A stretch of 46,252 nt of DNA from a virus, in IMG/VR virus record IMGVR_UViG_3300025087_000713, positions 1-46,252 of that record. One strand, 5' to 3'. Both the position numbers and the translations under genes were made by a program. Below are positions 21,298-46,219 of this stretch, piece by piece; the stretch's first letter is position 1, and each line of letters opens with the position of its first letter. The notes beneath the pieces are model-generated. The model was given only the letters and a program-made list of their open reading frames with translations, searched no databases and was not told the DNA's origin.

Positions 21298-21345
21298 TTA
21301 ACAAGAATATGACTCACCCGTAAGGAGCATTAGTGTTTTCATCAT
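21298..21345 (-). other. Possible 15-residue mini-ORF
   Basis: ATG at 21345 lies behind GGAAAGGGAGA, part of the same junction that ends the gene at 21342 and matches the junctions of the next two genes upstream. It encodes a hydrophobic 15-residue peptide (MMKTLMLL, then TGESYSC). It may be a remnant of a fourth gene in that series or a small peptide; no function is visible. Confidence 0.2.
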
Positions 21346-21668
21346 TCTCCCTTTCCTATGAGGTTGGATATTGTTTTACCATAATCACTGGTAAATTTTT
21401 CAACTTCGCTTTTTAGTTCGTCAAGAGTATCACACTTAAAGTATTTTCGCAAGATTTCTTTATCAAGAAAAAGCACCGAGACATTGCCCTCCCACCAATC
21501 ACCTATATTGTAATGTGGCGGATAAAACCTACTGCTTATTCTCAGCAAAGCACCGTCAAAGTCTAACTTAAAATTGCAATCAAAACGCCATTCGGGTTCG
21601 GCGTAAACATCTTTTCCCATGTTGGCATTGTCTTGCCAAACCTTTGCGTTATCCCAAGTAAGTGTCAT
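21342..21668 (-). CDS. Unknown protein with shared junction (gene 3 of 3)
   Basis: This 108-residue protein is not recognised. It has an aromatic N-terminal half (WDNAKVWQDN, EPEWRFDCNF) and a middle beta segment (FYPPHYNIGDWWEGNVSVLFL), then a helical end finishing NLIGKGE. The last residues NLIG and the bases coding for them are shared with the two genes upstream, which end NLIGDKK and NLIGEKK. Its start overlaps the previous stop (ATGA-type). Confidence 0.5.
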   Translation of the reverse strand: MTLTWDNAKVWQDNANMGKDVYAEPEWRFDCNFKLDFDGALLRISSRFYPPHYNIGDWWEGNVSVLFLDKEILRKYFKCDTLDELKSEVEKFTSDYGKTISNLIGKGE

Positions 21669-21940
21669 TTCTTATCTCCTATGAGATTTTCAATCATCTG
21701 TTTCGCCTGAGTTGCCGTAAATAGATTCGTTCCAATGGGTGAACAATTAGAATTGAAAGATATTCCTCCATCGGGATTAAAGTCTGACGGCAATTTCCAC
21801 GCAAGAAACCTGTCAACCATTTTGTCAATGTCTTTAGACGTTGCTTCGTCAATCGCCTTTTCCAATAATTCTCTGATGGAGTGTATTTCCCCATTAAACC
21901 ATTGTGCTTGATATTTCGCCATTATCTCTTTCTTGTTCAT
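21665..21940 (-). CDS. Unknown protein with shared junction (gene 2 of 3)
   Basis: This 91-residue protein is mostly helical (IRELLEKAIDEATSKDIDKM) and ends MIENLIGDKK. It begins at an ATG overlapping the previous stop, with AGGAGAAAAG in the coding end of gene 1 as ribosome site. No family was recognised. Its 3' end repeats the CTCATAGGAGA junction, giving gene 3 its own ribosome site. Confidence 0.5.
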   Translation of the reverse strand: MNKKEIMAKYQAQWFNGEIHSIRELLEKAIDEATSKDIDKMVDRFLAWKLPSDFNPDGGISFNSNCSPIGTNLFTATQAKQMIENLIGDKK

Positions 21941-22263
21941 TTCTTTTCTCCTATGAGGTTGTTGAGTTTTCTTTTTGCGTGAACGGTATCAAGCGGATAA
22001 GAGTCTAAGTATGCCAGCGTTTCTTTAACCCCCTCCCTGATGCGGGAGAGTTCTTTTATGGCTTCTCGTCCATTAAGTAATTCTGTGACCATTTCATTGA
22101 CAGCATCAACACCCATTCCGAATGGGAGCATTACATCAAGTCGTGCTTGTAATTCATCGTTCTTTTTTATCAACTCTTTGATTTCCTGCTGTTGGGATTG
22201 CAAGCGTATGTTTAGGTTTTCAATTTGTTGGTGCTGTTTGGTGATAATATCTTCGTTGTCCAT
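21937..22263 (-). CDS. Coiled-coil protein with shared junction (gene 1 of 3)
   Basis: This 108-residue protein has a coiled coil at about residues 8-45 (IENLNIRLQSQQQEIKELIKK). A short helical domain follows, and it ends KLNNLIGEKK. A strong GGGAGGAAT ribosome site precedes it. It heads the three-gene series that shares the NLIG end, and it lies directly downstream of the tRNA-like element, which is in its leader. Function unknown. Confidence 0.5.
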   Translation of the reverse strand: MDNEDIITKQHQQIENLNIRLQSQQQEIKELIKKNDELQARLDVMLPFGMGVDAVNEMVTELLNGREAIKELSRIREGVKETLAYLDSYPLDTVHAKRKLNNLIGEKK

Positions 22264-22299
22264 TTTATTCCTCCCTTTGTCTTAAATTAGGATTGTTTG

Positions 22300-22367
22300 T
22301 TGGACCGACAGGATTCGAACCTGTAATCACCGTTACCGGTCATTTTGCCAATTAAATGTACAGTCCA
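22300..22367 (-). ncRNA. tRNA-like element with no normal anticodon arm
   Basis: On the minus strand, a 68-base cloverleaf-like structure can be drawn. Its acceptor arms TGGACTG (22367-22361) and CGGTCCA (22307-22301) pair over 7 bp with one G-U. TA precedes a D-arm (CATT, loop with GG, AATG) of the classic AATTGGCAA type. The T-arm (ACAGG, TTCGAAT, CCTGT at 22324-22308) is perfect. Between D and T arms only about 15 bases remain, forming ACCG, GTAA loop, CGGT and then GATT. There is therefore no 7-base anticodon loop. It could be a decayed tRNA, a tRNA mimic or a recombination remnant. Confidence 0.55.
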
Positions 22368-22388
22368 AACCACTAACAGACAGAACTG

Positions 22389-22871
22389 TTAGAATGGTGT
22401 ATCTGTTGCTCTTTTGATTTCCTCTTCAGTTGCGGCACGAATGAATTGGTCGATTTTGTTCGATTTCAATTCTTGTCCAGCGGCTGAGCCAGTTGTTGGC
22501 GTGAAGGTATCTTGTCTTACAGTGAAGATGACAAAATGACCGAGAAAATCTTCAGCTTCCAAAACTCCTGCATTTGCTTTGTCGGTAAGACCAAGCATTT
22601 GAGTGAGTTCTGATAAACGCCTCACCATTGGTTTCTTGTAAGTCAGAATATCGTCAATATACACGATATCAGACGGACGATTGACCTGAACGGTGAGCTT
22701 CAAATAATCCGAGCCATCGCCTTTTGCTTGAGCTTCTTTTGCTGACGAAATTGAACCGATGTAATGGCATTTTACCATCTTTTCAATTCCATCGACAGTT
22801 GCAAGCTCTTCAACTGGCAATAGTTCAATCTCTGGATTATTCAGAGTTGATGGTGTTACTTTTAACGGCAT
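22389..22871 (-). CDS. Possible ssDNA-binding-type protein (DUF669-like)
   Basis: This 160-residue protein lies directly downstream of RecT's neighbour and looks like an OB-fold protein of the DUF669 kind found next to phage recombination genes. It has a beta-rich core (KCHYIGSISSAKEA, YLKLTVQVNRPSDIVYIDD) and HFVIFTVRQDTF, with an acidic helical tail. GGAGTA precedes its ATG. No definitive SSB motif is visible. If it binds single-stranded DNA, it would act with RecT, primase and helicase. Confidence 0.4.
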   Translation of the reverse strand: MPLKVTPSTLNNPEIELLPVEELATVDGIEKMVKCHYIGSISSAKEAQAKGDGSDYLKLTVQVNRPSDIVYIDDILTYKKPMVRRLSELTQMLGLTDKANAGVLEAEDFLGHFVIFTVRQDTFTPTTGSAAGQELKSNKIDQFIRAATEEEIKRATDTPF

Positions 22872-35051: not shown

Positions 35052-35309
35052 ATGATACCTATGGCATCCACTTCTGACTCCCAGCTTGCACACATCAAAC
35101 TACCTTATCAAATTCTGATATGGTTCATTACTCTTGTATTTTTCGCTGGAATGGCTTACAGTAATTTTGTGACGAAGACTGAGTTTGAGGAGTTTAAGCG
35201 ATTGAATGAAGAAAAGACTGAACGTATGCTCACGAAGATTGACAACAAGTTTGAGAGAATTATCAGCAAACTTGATGAATTACAAAAAGATAAGGTCGAC
35301 AAAAAGTAA
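35052..35309 (+). CDS. Membrane protein with coiled coil (holin or spanin candidate)
   Basis: This 85-residue protein has a membrane helix (about 17-37, LPYQILIWFITLVFFAGMAYS) and then a charged coiled coil (TEFEEFKRLNEEKTERMLTKID, FERIISKLDELQ). One helix plus a periplasmic or cytosolic coiled coil resembles inner spanin or XhlA-like proteins. It opens the rightward arm and is followed by a fibre gene rather than lysis genes. The start could be at 35052 or 35061. Its stop overlaps the next ATG. Confidence 0.5.
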   Translation: MIPMASTSDSQLAHIKLPYQILIWFITLVFFAGMAYSNFVTKTEFEEFKRLNEEKTERMLTKIDNKFERIISKLDELQKDKVDKK

Positions 35310-37561
35310 TGCAAAACTTTGGCTCATCTTTTTGGCACAATATAATCAAACCTTGTGCTATTTGTGATTTTCGACAGTCAAATCTGGACATTAAATTCCA
35401 GTCTGGACAAGCTACGCTCAATAATGGTTTTCCAGTGATGACTGGCAAACTTGGTCAAGGTATTTATCTGGGTGGTCAGCAATATCAATCTACGAACAAA
35501 GCCAACTATCTCACCTTTTCCAGAGGCACTCAAATCTCTGGCAACAACTACACGAACATAAACACCAATCAGGGAACAATATCGTTTTGGTTTAAGCCAT
35601 ATTGGGATGGTGATGATGGAAAAAGTCATTATTTTTTATGTACTGCAACAAATCAAGCAGTAAAAATTCATAAAGATTCAACAAACAATTTAGTTTTTCA
35701 AATTTATAATTCAGGAATAACAACTCCAACATTTATTACCTCAGTAAGTGCATCTGACTGGGTCGCTGGTACATGGTATCATATAGTTGTTAAATGGAGT
35801 TTATCACAGGCTGTCGATACTTCTTATATTGCCACTGTTTATGTAAATAATGTATTGGTTGCTTCTGATGGTGGAACGGCTGAGACAACCATTGTCACAC
35901 CAACATCTGTAATGTATATTGGTTCTGATTATGCTGGAAATTATCCATTAGAAGGAATTCTTGATGATTTTGCTATTTGGGATAGAGTTTTAACAACAAC
36001 AGAAATCACTGACCTCTACAATTCAGGCACAGGTAAAGTTGCTTCAACCTATGCTGATAGTTCTTTGAAATTATATCTTCCATTTGACGCCACAGCGGCT
36101 TACTCTGGAACTGCATTAGGTTGTAGTGCTGGAAATATGCAGACAGGGAATTTAGTGCTTGATGGAAATATGGAAACGTCTGGAACTCCTAATTGGACTC
36201 CAGGCGGAACTGGTGCAAGTCTTTCAAAAATAACTTCTGGACAGTTATTTGATTTACAATCATTGAAAGTAACAAATGGTGCCGCATCAACAACAGGATT
36301 TGCTTTACAAAATATAACAGTTGCTGAAGGGAGCACTTATCATTTTGAAGTATGGGGTCATATAGGAACAAATACAGCTTGGCGTATTATTTTAAGAAAT
36401 TTTGCTTCAACTGTGACTTTAGTTGATAAATCAATTAATAATTCTGGATGGACAAAATTTGAAACAGAGATACAGATTCCATCTGGATTTGGAACATCAT
36501 TATCTATTTTATTGTGCTCCTTAGCTGAAGCTGTAGGTGATAAATATGTATATTTTGATAATGCTATTTTTGTAGCCAACAAAATCGCTAACGGTGGTTT
36601 TGAGGGAACTTATACATCAGGAATTGCACCTGATTGGGCTGACGCTGGGACAGGTACAAAAACAGAAGAAACTACAATTATAAGAACTGGTTCTAAATCT
36701 CAAAAAATTGATTATGCTTCAAATGGAAATGGAATTGTACAGGCATCTTCATCGTTTAGTGTTAATGATTGGATTATTCAATCATTTTATTCATATTATA
36801 CAGATGGAGCACCAACATTTGCAATTTACAATGCAAGTCAGAATATTGGATTATCAGCAAGTCATGGAATAAATGCTTGGGGCAAAGCAACAAAAATCAC
36901 AAAACTTACTCAAACCTCTTATTCCAAATTTTTTGCAAATTCAAATGTTGGCGGTGGAGTATGCTACCATGATGATGCTTTTCTATTTGTATTATCATCA
37001 GTCGACATCACTCTCAACTATCTTGCCCAAGCTGATTTGTTTGAGAATAATGGGACGAAGGTTGGGATTACACTTGGAGACCAATATCTATCATTAGGCA
37101 CACCAGCACAATTAACAAGAAATGGTGCTGTTTTAGTTACTTTTATTCCAAATGGACTTTACAATTCAGCTGATAGAGCTATAATTTTTATGCAAAGTGC
37201 TGGCTACATAAGATTGTTTATGGAAGCCTCTACTGGTGTTTTAACTGCACAAATAAATGCAACAACATTTTCCGTCAAAACATTTACGTCAAATACTTTA
37301 TGGCGTGTTCGTCAAAGAATAATCTTGTCATGGGATTTTGACAATAATATATATGAAGCATTTTTAGATGGCACTAAAATTGCTGGATATTATTCTGCAA
37401 TAACAGCACCAACTATTGATGGAACTATATATATTGGTCGACATTCTCAGCTTTATACAAATTCTGGAAATGTAAATGTTGAAAAGTTGATTATATTTAA
37501 TCAAGCTCTAAATCAAAATCAAGCTTACGCCATTGACAACGCTTATGAGTATGCCATCTAA
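35309..37561 (+). CDS. LamG-domain fibre or spike protein
   Basis: This 750-residue protein has two LamG/concanavalin-like regions. The first (about 85-245) has GTISFWFKP, GTWYHIVVKW, VYVNNVLVASDGG and LDDFAIWDRVLTTTEITDLYNSG. The second (about 600-745) has WRVRQRIILSW, YEAFLDGTKIAG and YIGRH. Between them are two jelly-roll-like segments (VLDGNMETSG..., IANGGFEGTY...) typical of carbohydrate-binding modules. It probably binds host surface glycans. It is separated from the tail genes, before the lysis genes. Its start is on TAATG. Confidence 0.7.
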   Translation: MQNFGSSFWHNIIKPCAICDFRQSNLDIKFQSGQATLNNGFPVMTGKLGQGIYLGGQQYQSTNKANYLTFSRGTQISGNNYTNINTNQGTISFWFKPYWDGDDGKSHYFLCTATNQAVKIHKDSTNNLVFQIYNSGITTPTFITSVSASDWVAGTWYHIVVKWSLSQAVDTSYIATVYVNNVLVASDGGTAETTIVTPTSVMYIGSDYAGNYPLEGILDDFAIWDRVLTTTEITDLYNSGTGKVASTYADSSLKLYLPFDATAAYSGTALGCSAGNMQTGNLVLDGNMETSGTPNWTPGGTGASLSKITSGQLFDLQSLKVTNGAASTTGFALQNITVAEGSTYHFEVWGHIGTNTAWRIILRNFASTVTLVDKSINNSGWTKFETEIQIPSGFGTSLSILLCSLAEAVGDKYVYFDNAIFVANKIANGGFEGTYTSGIAPDWADAGTGTKTEETTIIRTGSKSQKIDYASNGNGIVQASSSFSVNDWIIQSFYSYYTDGAPTFAIYNASQNIGLSASHGINAWGKATKITKLTQTSYSKFFANSNVGGGVCYHDDAFLFVLSSVDITLNYLAQADLFENNGTKVGITLGDQYLSLGTPAQLTRNGAVLVTFIPNGLYNSADRAIIFMQSAGYIRLFMEASTGVLTAQINATTFSVKTFTSNTLWRVRQRIILSWDFDNNIYEAFLDGTKIAGYYSAITAPTIDGTIYIGRHSQLYTNSGNVNVEKLIIFNQALNQNQAYAIDNAYEYAI

Positions 37562-43742: not shown

Positions 43743-44738
43743 ATGTCTGACATGTTGACTCCTGCGGGTGGATACGGTAATCTTTTTGGTTACAATGTAA
43801 CCAATATCCGTGCAGATGGTTTTGAGGTTCAGAATATGGGTCGTGAAGTTTTGCGACTTGCTCTTCCTCAACTCGTGTTTGCTATGGGTATGCAAGAATC
43901 ACGTAACGCTTTTGGCGTGGGCAAAGGTGGCACTTTCACAGTTCCGATTTTCAAGGACTGGGGTGCTCCAGCTACTGTATCGCCATTGGTATCGGGAACT
44001 TCTATCGGTCTTGGAACTCAAAAGACTGACAGTGTCTCGATGTCCATATACGAATACGGCACTGGTATTGCCTATGAAAAGCTTGGTGATTGGATGACTG
44101 ATATCAATCTCCGTAGGCAAATCGAACAGACTTTGGGCAATCACACTGCAAGAATGTTGAACTGGCTTGACTATGATACTTTAGTCAATACTACGTTCAG
44201 TATTGAAGTTCCTGCAACTGGTTCTTACACGGCTCTTCTTGGAACAAACCGTATCGGTGTTGTCGCTACGGCTTGGGGTGAACTCGGTTATGGCGGTGTT
44301 GCGTTAGTTCGTGACACGTTCAAAAATAACGTGGTAGCTCCCAAGACTTCTCGTGGTAAGTATCTGTGGTTCGCCACTCCTGAAACTCTCCGTAATTTGA
44401 AAGCTGGTTCAGTGTTCCAAAACCAAGTGCTTTATAGCAAAATTTCTTCACCTTCGTTCCAAGTCTTGGGCGAATTTGAGGACTTCTTGTTCGTTGAAAC
44501 CAGCGAACAACTTGGCAAGGGAACATCAATCGTCACGGGTGCAAATTCGGCTGGATTTGGCTTTGGGCTCACGCCTAAAGTTTACTTCTATAAGGATTAT
44601 GGCTCTGACGCTGAACGTCTCCAAGTTTGGAAAACTTTGTTCTATCGTGGACAAGGTCCAATCTTCCGAGACAAAGGCACGACCTGTATCGTTGTTCGCT
44701 CCAAGTCGGGTGCTTTCAACTACGGTGGTTTGGGTTAG
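43743..44738 (+). CDS. Major capsid protein (N4-gp56-like, HK97 fold)
   Basis: This 331-residue protein matches the N4-gp56-type capsid family: GGTFTVPIFKDWG near 61-73, then YEYGTGIAYEKLGDWMTDINLRRQIEQTLGNHTARMLNWLDYDTL near 100-145. It has KYLWFATPETLRNL and a C-terminal RDKGTTCIVVRS segment. No cleavable N-terminal delta domain is visible, which fits a separate scaffold. It is followed by a terminator, as expected of an abundant subunit. Confidence 0.85.
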   Translation: MSDMLTPAGGYGNLFGYNVTNIRADGFEVQNMGREVLRLALPQLVFAMGMQESRNAFGVGKGGTFTVPIFKDWGAPATVSPLVSGTSIGLGTQKTDSVSMSIYEYGTGIAYEKLGDWMTDINLRRQIEQTLGNHTARMLNWLDYDTLVNTTFSIEVPATGSYTALLGTNRIGVVATAWGELGYGGVALVRDTFKNNVVAPKTSRGKYLWFATPETLRNLKAGSVFQNQVLYSKISSPSFQVLGEFEDFLFVETSEQLGKGTSIVTGANSAGFGFGLTPKVYFYKDYGSDAERLQVWKTLFYRGQGPIFRDKGTTCIVVRSKSGAFNYGGLG

Positions 44739-45179: not shown

Positions 45180-45488
45180 ATGTTTGAAACTGGTGTATTC
45201 AAAATTATTGGTGTCACGAAAGCGGCTATCATTCCTGATAGATATATCGCTCCTGGTGCCAAAACGTTTACCCTGATAAACTATGGGCAAACGATGTCTC
45301 CTGTGGTCGTTGAGTATTCTAACGACCTGTCGACCTGGGGAACAGCTGATGGAACGAGTTTTGGTAGCTTGGCTGCCACTTCTCAAGCCTATTCGTATCT
45401 CATCGATGGGCGTCCATATTGGCGTGTTCAAGGTGCAGTTGGAACGGCTGGTGCCACGTCTTACGGCACTTGGGTAGTAAATTATTAA
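45180..45488 (+). CDS. Head decoration-like protein (paralog 2)
   Basis: This 102-residue protein starts behind GAGG. It shares with its neighbour the block order KTFTLINYG, STWGTADGT, YSYLIDGRPYW and ATSYGTWVV. It is beta-rich with no cysteine. The two genes are 39 bases apart and likely arose by duplication. They could decorate the head or be the glycosyltransferases' acceptors; this is inferred from neighbourhood only. Confidence 0.6.
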   Translation: MFETGVFKIIGVTKAAIIPDRYIAPGAKTFTLINYGQTMSPVVVEYSNDLSTWGTADGTSFGSLAATSQAYSYLIDGRPYWRVQGAVGTAGATSYGTWVVNY

Positions 45489-45502
45489 ACTTTGGAGAAC
45501 AT

Positions 45503-46219
45503 ATGGTAAATGGTAAAACTGTATCTTTGTGCATGGTCGTTTACAATTCAAGCGATTTGTGCGAAAGAGCAATAAATTCTGTAAAATCAATCATTGATGA
45601 GGTCGTGATTGTGGATCAAGGTTCGTCTGCAAGTGATTCAGAGAAATTGAAGTCACTTGCAGATGTTTACCTCAAGACAACCAACAAAGGTAATGCTGAC
45701 TATGATAGACAGTATTGTTATGCGTTGGCTACAAAGGATTACATTCTTGCTCTTGATGCTGATGAGTTTTTTGACGAAGTTGAATTAAAGAAAATCAATT
45801 CTGTATTTGAATATGATTTTCACGTTGTTTGGTTTCTGTTCAAAAATCTCGTTGTTCACGGAGAAGTTGAATTTGATATAAAAGATATTCTTGGTGGCGA
45901 TGACCCACATCCAAGATTATGGAAAAGAGAGATTGAGTTTCAAGGCACGAAGACAAGTCCTGTTAAGTGGCCCCATGAAGCACACAAGTTTCCTGCAATG
46001 ATATCTGATAAGCAGATATTCTCAGAAACTTTTGTTACTCATCGGAGAGAACTTGCCAATATCGTGAGAACTCATCTTCATCGTGGAAAAAATATCCATC
46101 CACAAGCACAGGAATTGGAAAGAAATTTCGTGAAAGCTGTGCTTAGCAAGTTCAAGTTTGAAACAAAGTCTGAACTTAATAAACAATTCCCTGAATTACG
46201 GCATTATTTGAAAGGCTGA
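45503..46219 (+). CDS. Family 2 glycosyltransferase (second)
   Basis: This 238-residue protein has a GT-A fold: VSLCMVVYNSSDLCERAINSV at 8-27, VIVDQGSSASDSEK at 36-48 and the DxD motif LDADEFF near 84-90. A later KWPHEAHKF supplies histidines. It starts behind GGAG. It follows the decoration-like genes and lies next to the window end; the other glycosyltransferase is at the start. Both probably act on phage structural proteins. Sugar donor unknown. Confidence 0.85.
   Translation: MVNGKTVSLCMVVYNSSDLCERAINSVKSIIDEVVIVDQGSSASDSEKLKSLADVYLKTTNKGNADYDRQYCYALATKDYILALDADEFFDEVELKKINSVFEYDFHVVWFLFKNLVVHGEVEFDIKDILGGDDPHPRLWKREIEFQGTKTSPVKWPHEAHKFPAMISDKQIFSETFVTHRRELANIVRTHLHRGKNIHPQAQELERNFVKAVLSKFKFETKSELNKQFPELRHYLKG

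Follow-up and report, generated by a model that had tools for sequence, protein, structure and literature searches.

A tRNA-shaped element without an anticodon loop in the early operon of an undescribed phage lineage

Analysis of the virus record IMGVR_UViG_3300025087_000713 (a 46-kb virus, the whole 46,252-nt stretch of which is referred to here as the window) confirmed that its minus strand carries, from position 22367 to 22300, a real tRNA-like shape which lacks an anticodon loop. This element is best explained, albeit tentatively and at somewhat less than an even chance, as a tRNA-derived gene without an anticodon that is retained as a non-decoding tRNA mimic. A preceding sequence-only reading had suggested either a mimic or a decayed gene, which proved to be the right pair of alternatives; for this copy, retention is only slightly favored over recent loss, the two being almost equally likely. 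The coordinates in that reading were correct, while the strand had been left unstated. The components of the element and its locus are as follows:

22300-22367, minus strand: anticodonless tRNA-like element, 68 nt including the discriminator A (22300)
22361-22367, minus strand: acceptor stem, 5' strand TGGACTG, 7/7 pairs with 22301-22307, one of them G-U
22301-22307, minus strand: acceptor stem, 3' strand CGGTCCA
22341-22358, minus strand: D-arm CATTT-AATTGGCA-AAATG, 5 bp, G18G19 in the loop
22329-22340, minus strand: mini-hairpin ACCG-GTAA-CGGT replacing the anticodon arm, 4 bp, GNRA tetraloop
22308-22324, minus strand: T-arm ACAGG-TTCGAAT-CCTGT
22373-22392, minus strand: hairpin CTAACAG-TTCTGT-CTGTTAG (inverted repeat) upstream of the element
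22389-22871, minus strand: upstream ("SSB-like") gene, 160 aa, with a homologue at 34% in the related contig G003
21937-22263, minus strand: downstream gene, the first of three overlapping small genes, its start codon 37 nt past the element
22270-22276, minus strand: Shine-Dalgarno-like AGGGAGG of the downstream gene, as read from the sequence
21342-22263, minus strand: the three small genes; in G003, neither they nor the element occur between the SSB-like gene and the Dam gene

The Rfam tRNA family RF00005, the sole family matched in the window, aligns to the element over the full length of the model (positions 1-71) at 40.2 bits, compared to a gathering score of 29 (cmscan of the whole window with 4227 families, E = 3.5e-5), and the covariance-model comparison proposed in the sequence-only reading thus returned a match above the gathering score. 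All 21 standard pairs (acceptor 7/7, D 5/5, hairpin 4/4, T 5/5) and all 12 of the conserved bases counted are intact, with U8, A14, G18, G19 and the T-loop being canonical, which bears out the earlier description of a well-formed acceptor stem, D-arm with GG and T-arm. Read 5' to 3', the element comprises TGGACTG, TA, CATTT, AATTGGCA, AAATG, ACCG, GTAA and CGGT, followed by GATT, ACAGG, TTCGAAT, CCTGT, CGGTCCA and A. It combines a 7-bp acceptor stem with a 5-bp T-stem whose loop conforms to TTCRANY; the D-stem can form five pairs, one C beyond the Rfam consensus, pair 3-70 is G-C, and no CCA is encoded, ACAA (the discriminator A, then CAA) being present in its place.

The full cloverleaf (-20.7 kcal/mol) is suboptimal, lying 0.9 kcal/mol above the minimum-energy fold (-21.6 kcal/mol), which keeps the acceptor stem, T-arm and GTAA hairpin, lengthens the hairpin by AAU/AUU and leaves the D-stem open. 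The folding z-score is just -2.35, with 4 of 200 shuffles folding equally well, and this modest value would suit a chance likeness to a tRNA; that explanation, to which we assign practically no probability, is nevertheless already refuted by the Rfam score, its E value having been obtained for the whole window against all families. Moreover, a search requiring 7 + 5 pairs and the T-loop consensus, even without demanding a D-arm, returned one acceptor plus T-arm match in 60 Markov-shuffled windows and one in the real window.

The departure from a conventional tRNA is confined to the region between the D- and T-stems, which measures 16 nt (about 15 had been estimated) as opposed to 22-23 nt in normal class I tRNAs from the same data, and which contains the hairpin ACCG-GTAA-CGGT, as had been noticed. 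A 5-bp anticodon arm with a 7-nt loop and U33 is absent from the element in every register, supporting the earlier claim that the element, having no anticodon loop, cannot decode. ARAGORN called neither a tRNA nor a tmRNA in the window, and neither this program nor the Rfam scan found any other tRNA gene there.

Two routes to such an arrangement were considered. Loss of 7 nt from an ordinary class I anticodon arm, for example CCGTT-YTNNNGT-AACGG, yields exactly CCGGTAACGG, and any 7-nt deletion within a normal anticodon arm leaves three pairs and a 4-nt loop. Because a simple deletion also yields a paired short stem, the well-formed short stem is weak evidence, and no proof, of function; the GNRA loop was likewise not counted toward function, as a deletion can leave such a loop. 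Loss of the whole anticodon arm from a class II tRNA, so that the remaining hairpin would be its variable arm, fits as well: CCGGTAACGG is the variable arm in several phage tRNAs having normal anticodon arms, and the variable-arm stem is closed by GTAA in 5 of 152 class II phage tRNAs. The D-arm of the element looks more class I-like than class II.

The element is located in a one-strand, densely packed early operon with overlapping genes, which includes RecT-like, primase, DnaB-like and Dam-like genes, and it takes up the greater part of a 125-nt spacer (22264-22388) flanked by two minus-strand genes. Its reported placement between an SSB-like gene and three small genes therefore stands, the 160-aa product of the former having neither a Pfam nor a PHROG match. 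The upstream gene has its stop codon within the 7-bp CTAACAG hairpin, which stops 5 nt short of the element. Elsewhere in the window, a gene located upstream of the lysis genes (35309-37561, plus strand) encodes a 750-aa protein containing a laminin-G/concanavalin-like domain, and two genes for family-2-glycosyltransferase-like proteins stand among the structural genes, one at each end of the record (45419-46219 and 16-726, both plus strand), homologues of which are present in the related contigs G002 and G003.

The phage carrying the element is an undescribed lineage. No close relatives were found in INPHARED, a megablast of 22 kb giving no match and a blastn of the element region nothing beyond short matches by chance or to T-arms, and the SSB-like and DnaB genes identified no relatives in IMG/VR. 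Three IMG/VR contigs encode the terminase at 57-60%, single-sequence and alignment searches giving the same three. G003 (45 kb), which is the longest of the three and the closest of the long relatives, is largely syntenic with the window and is the only relative covering the site; its SSB-like and Dam genes lie approximately 130 nt apart, and the element and the three small genes were either inserted relative to G003 or lost in G003. An intact tRNA at this site in relatives, which the sequence-only reading had named as evidence against its proposal, was accordingly not seen in G003, where the whole insertion is missing. G003 does, however, harbor a tRNA-like of its own (44396-44470, minus strand; L206:4396-4470), with a perfect 7-bp acceptor stem, a 5-bp T-stem and an abnormal middle, approximately 44 nt before the start codon of a small gene; it received no tRNA call above cut-off, and its best Rfam match was tRNA-Sec at 21.6 bits.

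No homologue of the element at an equivalent site was found in IMG/VR, and selection on this copy is consequently not directly visible. Pattern searches of IMG/VR for an intact relative of the element were equally negative, and the TGGACTGTA...GGTTCGAATCCTG pattern recovered only unrelated tRNAs, mostly tRNA-Tyr, from genome_contigs, where acceptor-pattern matches were mostly tRNA-Tyr anticodon arms. Several candidates were discarded: nearly all matches to CCGGTAACGG plus a T-arm were chance or class II variable arms; the matches listed for AATTGG...GGTTCGAATCC included many false positives with AATTGG in the variable arm or anticodon stem, which, together with those of a closer variant, were removed by a structural filter; and L158:1011-1082 (minus strand), which has CCGGTAACGGTGAT at the same place, was called as tRNA-Leu by ARAGORN and was not counted as a homologue.

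Compensatory changes, for which the sequence-only reading had suggested looking, were found in two other groups of anticodonless phage tRNA-likes, termed A and S, neither of which is homologous to the window locus. Group A comprises 26 IMG/VR contigs with an anticodonless tRNA-like, many of them in large phage tRNA clusters (members include L087, L095, L110, L116, L120, L140, L177, L235, L245 and L249). Its mini-hairpin TCCT-AACA-AGGA (TCCTAACAAGGA) is unchanged in 26/26 contigs, an invariance which arises by construction, as the hairpin belonged to the collecting search pattern; in independent scans with the middle left free, every group A member still had TCCT-AACA-AGGA. Seven pairs in the acceptor, D- and T-stems have changed on both sides (reached by 0 of 500 shuffles, with slid controls giving at most 2), and the acceptor stem of L249 differs from that of the other members. 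The contig L249 also bears a Hatchet ribozyme (RF02678, 82.3 bits) at 1091-1253. The group A elements, L087, L249 and others, share the arm plan of the window element, a 4-bp/4-nt mini-hairpin and an equal Rfam score (40.3 and 38.0 for two members), but differ from it in mini-hairpin sequence, in their frequent location in tRNA clusters and in their conservation across the 26 contigs.

Scanning of IMG/VR for tRNA-likes with a shortened middle also left, after structural filtering, a sporadic set, examples being L159/L162 (whose acceptor stems differ and are still paired), L139, L121, L113 and L136. A clearly shortened middle was seen in only a handful of several hundred distinct tRNA-like top halves from flanking DNA that the patterns had not selected, and such elements are therefore rare rather than a by-product of loose criteria. 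The contig L151 (IMGVR_UViG_3300032173_000003) carries a large tRNA array with 24 ARAGORN calls and several odd tRNA-likes without a normal anticodon arm.

Group S, discovered through the first search pattern, is an unannotated RNA between the tRNA-Val and tRNA-Leu genes of approximately 82 Streptomyces phage records, with copies at the following positions:

L250:1501-1578 (LukeCage, MH590597.1, 87291-87368): group S RNA
L251 to L257, at about 701-778: group S RNA

Its acceptor is of the alanine type, with an invariant G3-U70 and A73; it has no D-stem, a GG-bearing stretch occurring where the D-arm would be, and a stem of 7-8 bp, capped by the invariant 16-nt loop AAAGCCGACAATGGAC, replaces the anticodon arm, while the T-arm is present. 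Both partners have changed in six pairs, a number reached by 0 of 500 shuffles. Group S looks like the tRNA domain of tmRNA minus the mRNA part, its copy in Bmoc matching tmRNA at 30.1 bits, below the gathering score of 47. Together, groups A and S show that anticodonless tRNA-likes are maintained by selection in some phages. Unannotated tRNA-likes with a G3-U70 acceptor, a T-arm, a larger middle and a hairpin loop GTCAG were also observed in the Microbacterium phages Rollins (L258, about 494-583) and Dismas (L259, about 386-475), the stem of the GTCAG hairpin differing between the two yet pairing in both.

Several known RNAs invite comparison. Phage tRNA genes (RF00005) resemble the element in acceptor stem, D-arm, T-arm, size class and an above-gathering Rfam score, but have the 5-bp/7-nt anticodon arm which the non-decoding element, missed by ARAGORN, lacks. 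The tRNA-like domain of tmRNA (RF00023) is, like the element, an upper tRNA half without an anticodon, whereas the 68-nt element is far shorter, has a D-stem, carries G3-C70 rather than G3-U70 and contains no mRNA-like domain or tag reading frame; group S resembles tmRNA much more closely. In the literature searched, which largely excluded subscription journals, no description of anticodonless phage tRNAs was found. Some phage tRNAs evade anticodon nucleases via mutations in the anticodon loop (PMC10264068); these have an altered loop and still decode, while the loop of the element is gone.

The strongest rival to retention, and one to which we give a substantial though minority share, is that the element is a young, decaying pseudogene, derived from an acquired phage tRNA whose anticodon arm was recently shortened by 7 nt or, in the case of a class II tRNA, removed altogether. 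That one 7-nt deletion gives exactly the sequence of the element speaks for this explanation and against the mimic; the GTAA-closed class II variable arms and the occurrence of CCGGTAACGG itself as a variable arm also speak for decay, short forms are, furthermore, rare and mostly singletons, and the sporadic IMG/VR elements could largely be fresh pseudogenes. Damage spread over the gene, as in a tRNA pseudogene, is, on the other hand, absent. Neutral survival of all pairs and the 12 conserved bases would be expected at 15%, 5.6% and 0.8% for divergences of 4%, 6% and 10%, respectively, and, since all of these are intact, any loss must be recent (under about 6% divergence). The phage also lacks any further tRNA gene, and the pattern search of genome_contigs returned unrelated tRNAs in place of an intact relative. 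What tips the balance slightly toward retention is that the rest of the element is intact, that the genome is dense and that other phages provide precedents: the Rfam score is on par with those of demonstrably conserved elements, 68 nt of intact fold would be costly junk where genes are so tightly packed, and the tRNA-like before a start codon in G003 was also counted in favor of the mimic.

The core of an attachment site is typically a tRNA gene's 3' half, and the element might accordingly be an attP-like copy of a host tRNA end for integration; this is very improbable, as the 5' half is present and fully paired, no integrase turned up in the protein searches, and those of the larger products that lack a profile identity lie mostly within the block common to relatives. 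It is also unlikely, though less so, that the element serves as operon punctuation in cis, whereby RNase P and 3'-tRNase would cut at a tRNA shape, giving the upstream mRNA a 3' end beyond the CTAACAG hairpin and releasing the downstream leader, with the excised RNA having no role of its own. The element indeed sits in a spacer between two same-strand genes, with 5 nt separating the stop-codon hairpin from the predicted RNase P site and a start codon 37 nt downstream, much as the tRNA-like of G003 precedes a start codon by approximately 44 nt; ordinary tRNA genes in operon spacers look no different, however, and the demonstrably conserved groups reside among tRNA genes. A precedent is provided by the t-elements of plant mitochondria, which undergo cleavage and receive a CCA tail without being charged (PMC11658184). 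These share with the element a tRNA-derived, non-decoding nature and a position at mRNA ends in a polycistronic setting, the element likewise lying at the end of an mRNA-coding gene, but the element is from a bacterial virus and its cleavage is putative.

If the element is retained as a mimic, it would be co-transcribed with the operon and excised at its acceptor stem by host RNase P and 3'-processing enzymes, with subsequent addition of a CCA tail; such excision would also split the upstream from the downstream mRNA. The element has a complete acceptor/T-arm half, together with the D-loop GG that docks to the T-loop, and may occupy enzymes whose recognition is limited to the upper tRNA half, while the lack of an anticodon loop would preclude both entry into decoding and cutting by anticodon nucleases. 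As to what the element acts on, we infer that candidate partners include RNase P, the CCA-adding enzyme, EF-Tu, an anticodon-independent synthetase and a defence enzyme that attacks tRNA tails.

Phage tRNAs are usually seen as decoding helpers or as substitutes for tRNAs cut by host defences. It is conceivable, at roughly one chance in three in our estimation, that several phage lineages (group A, the Streptomyces group S and the window element) keep upper-half tRNA mimics as decoys or as non-decoding amino-acid carriers, for example against defence enzymes that attack tRNA tails. If true, a non-decoding phage tRNA which keeps the half recognised by enzymes would mean that phages use tRNAs as protein-binding mimics, and the conserved groups, above all the Streptomyces RNA with its G3-U70, bring this idea within reach of laboratory phages.
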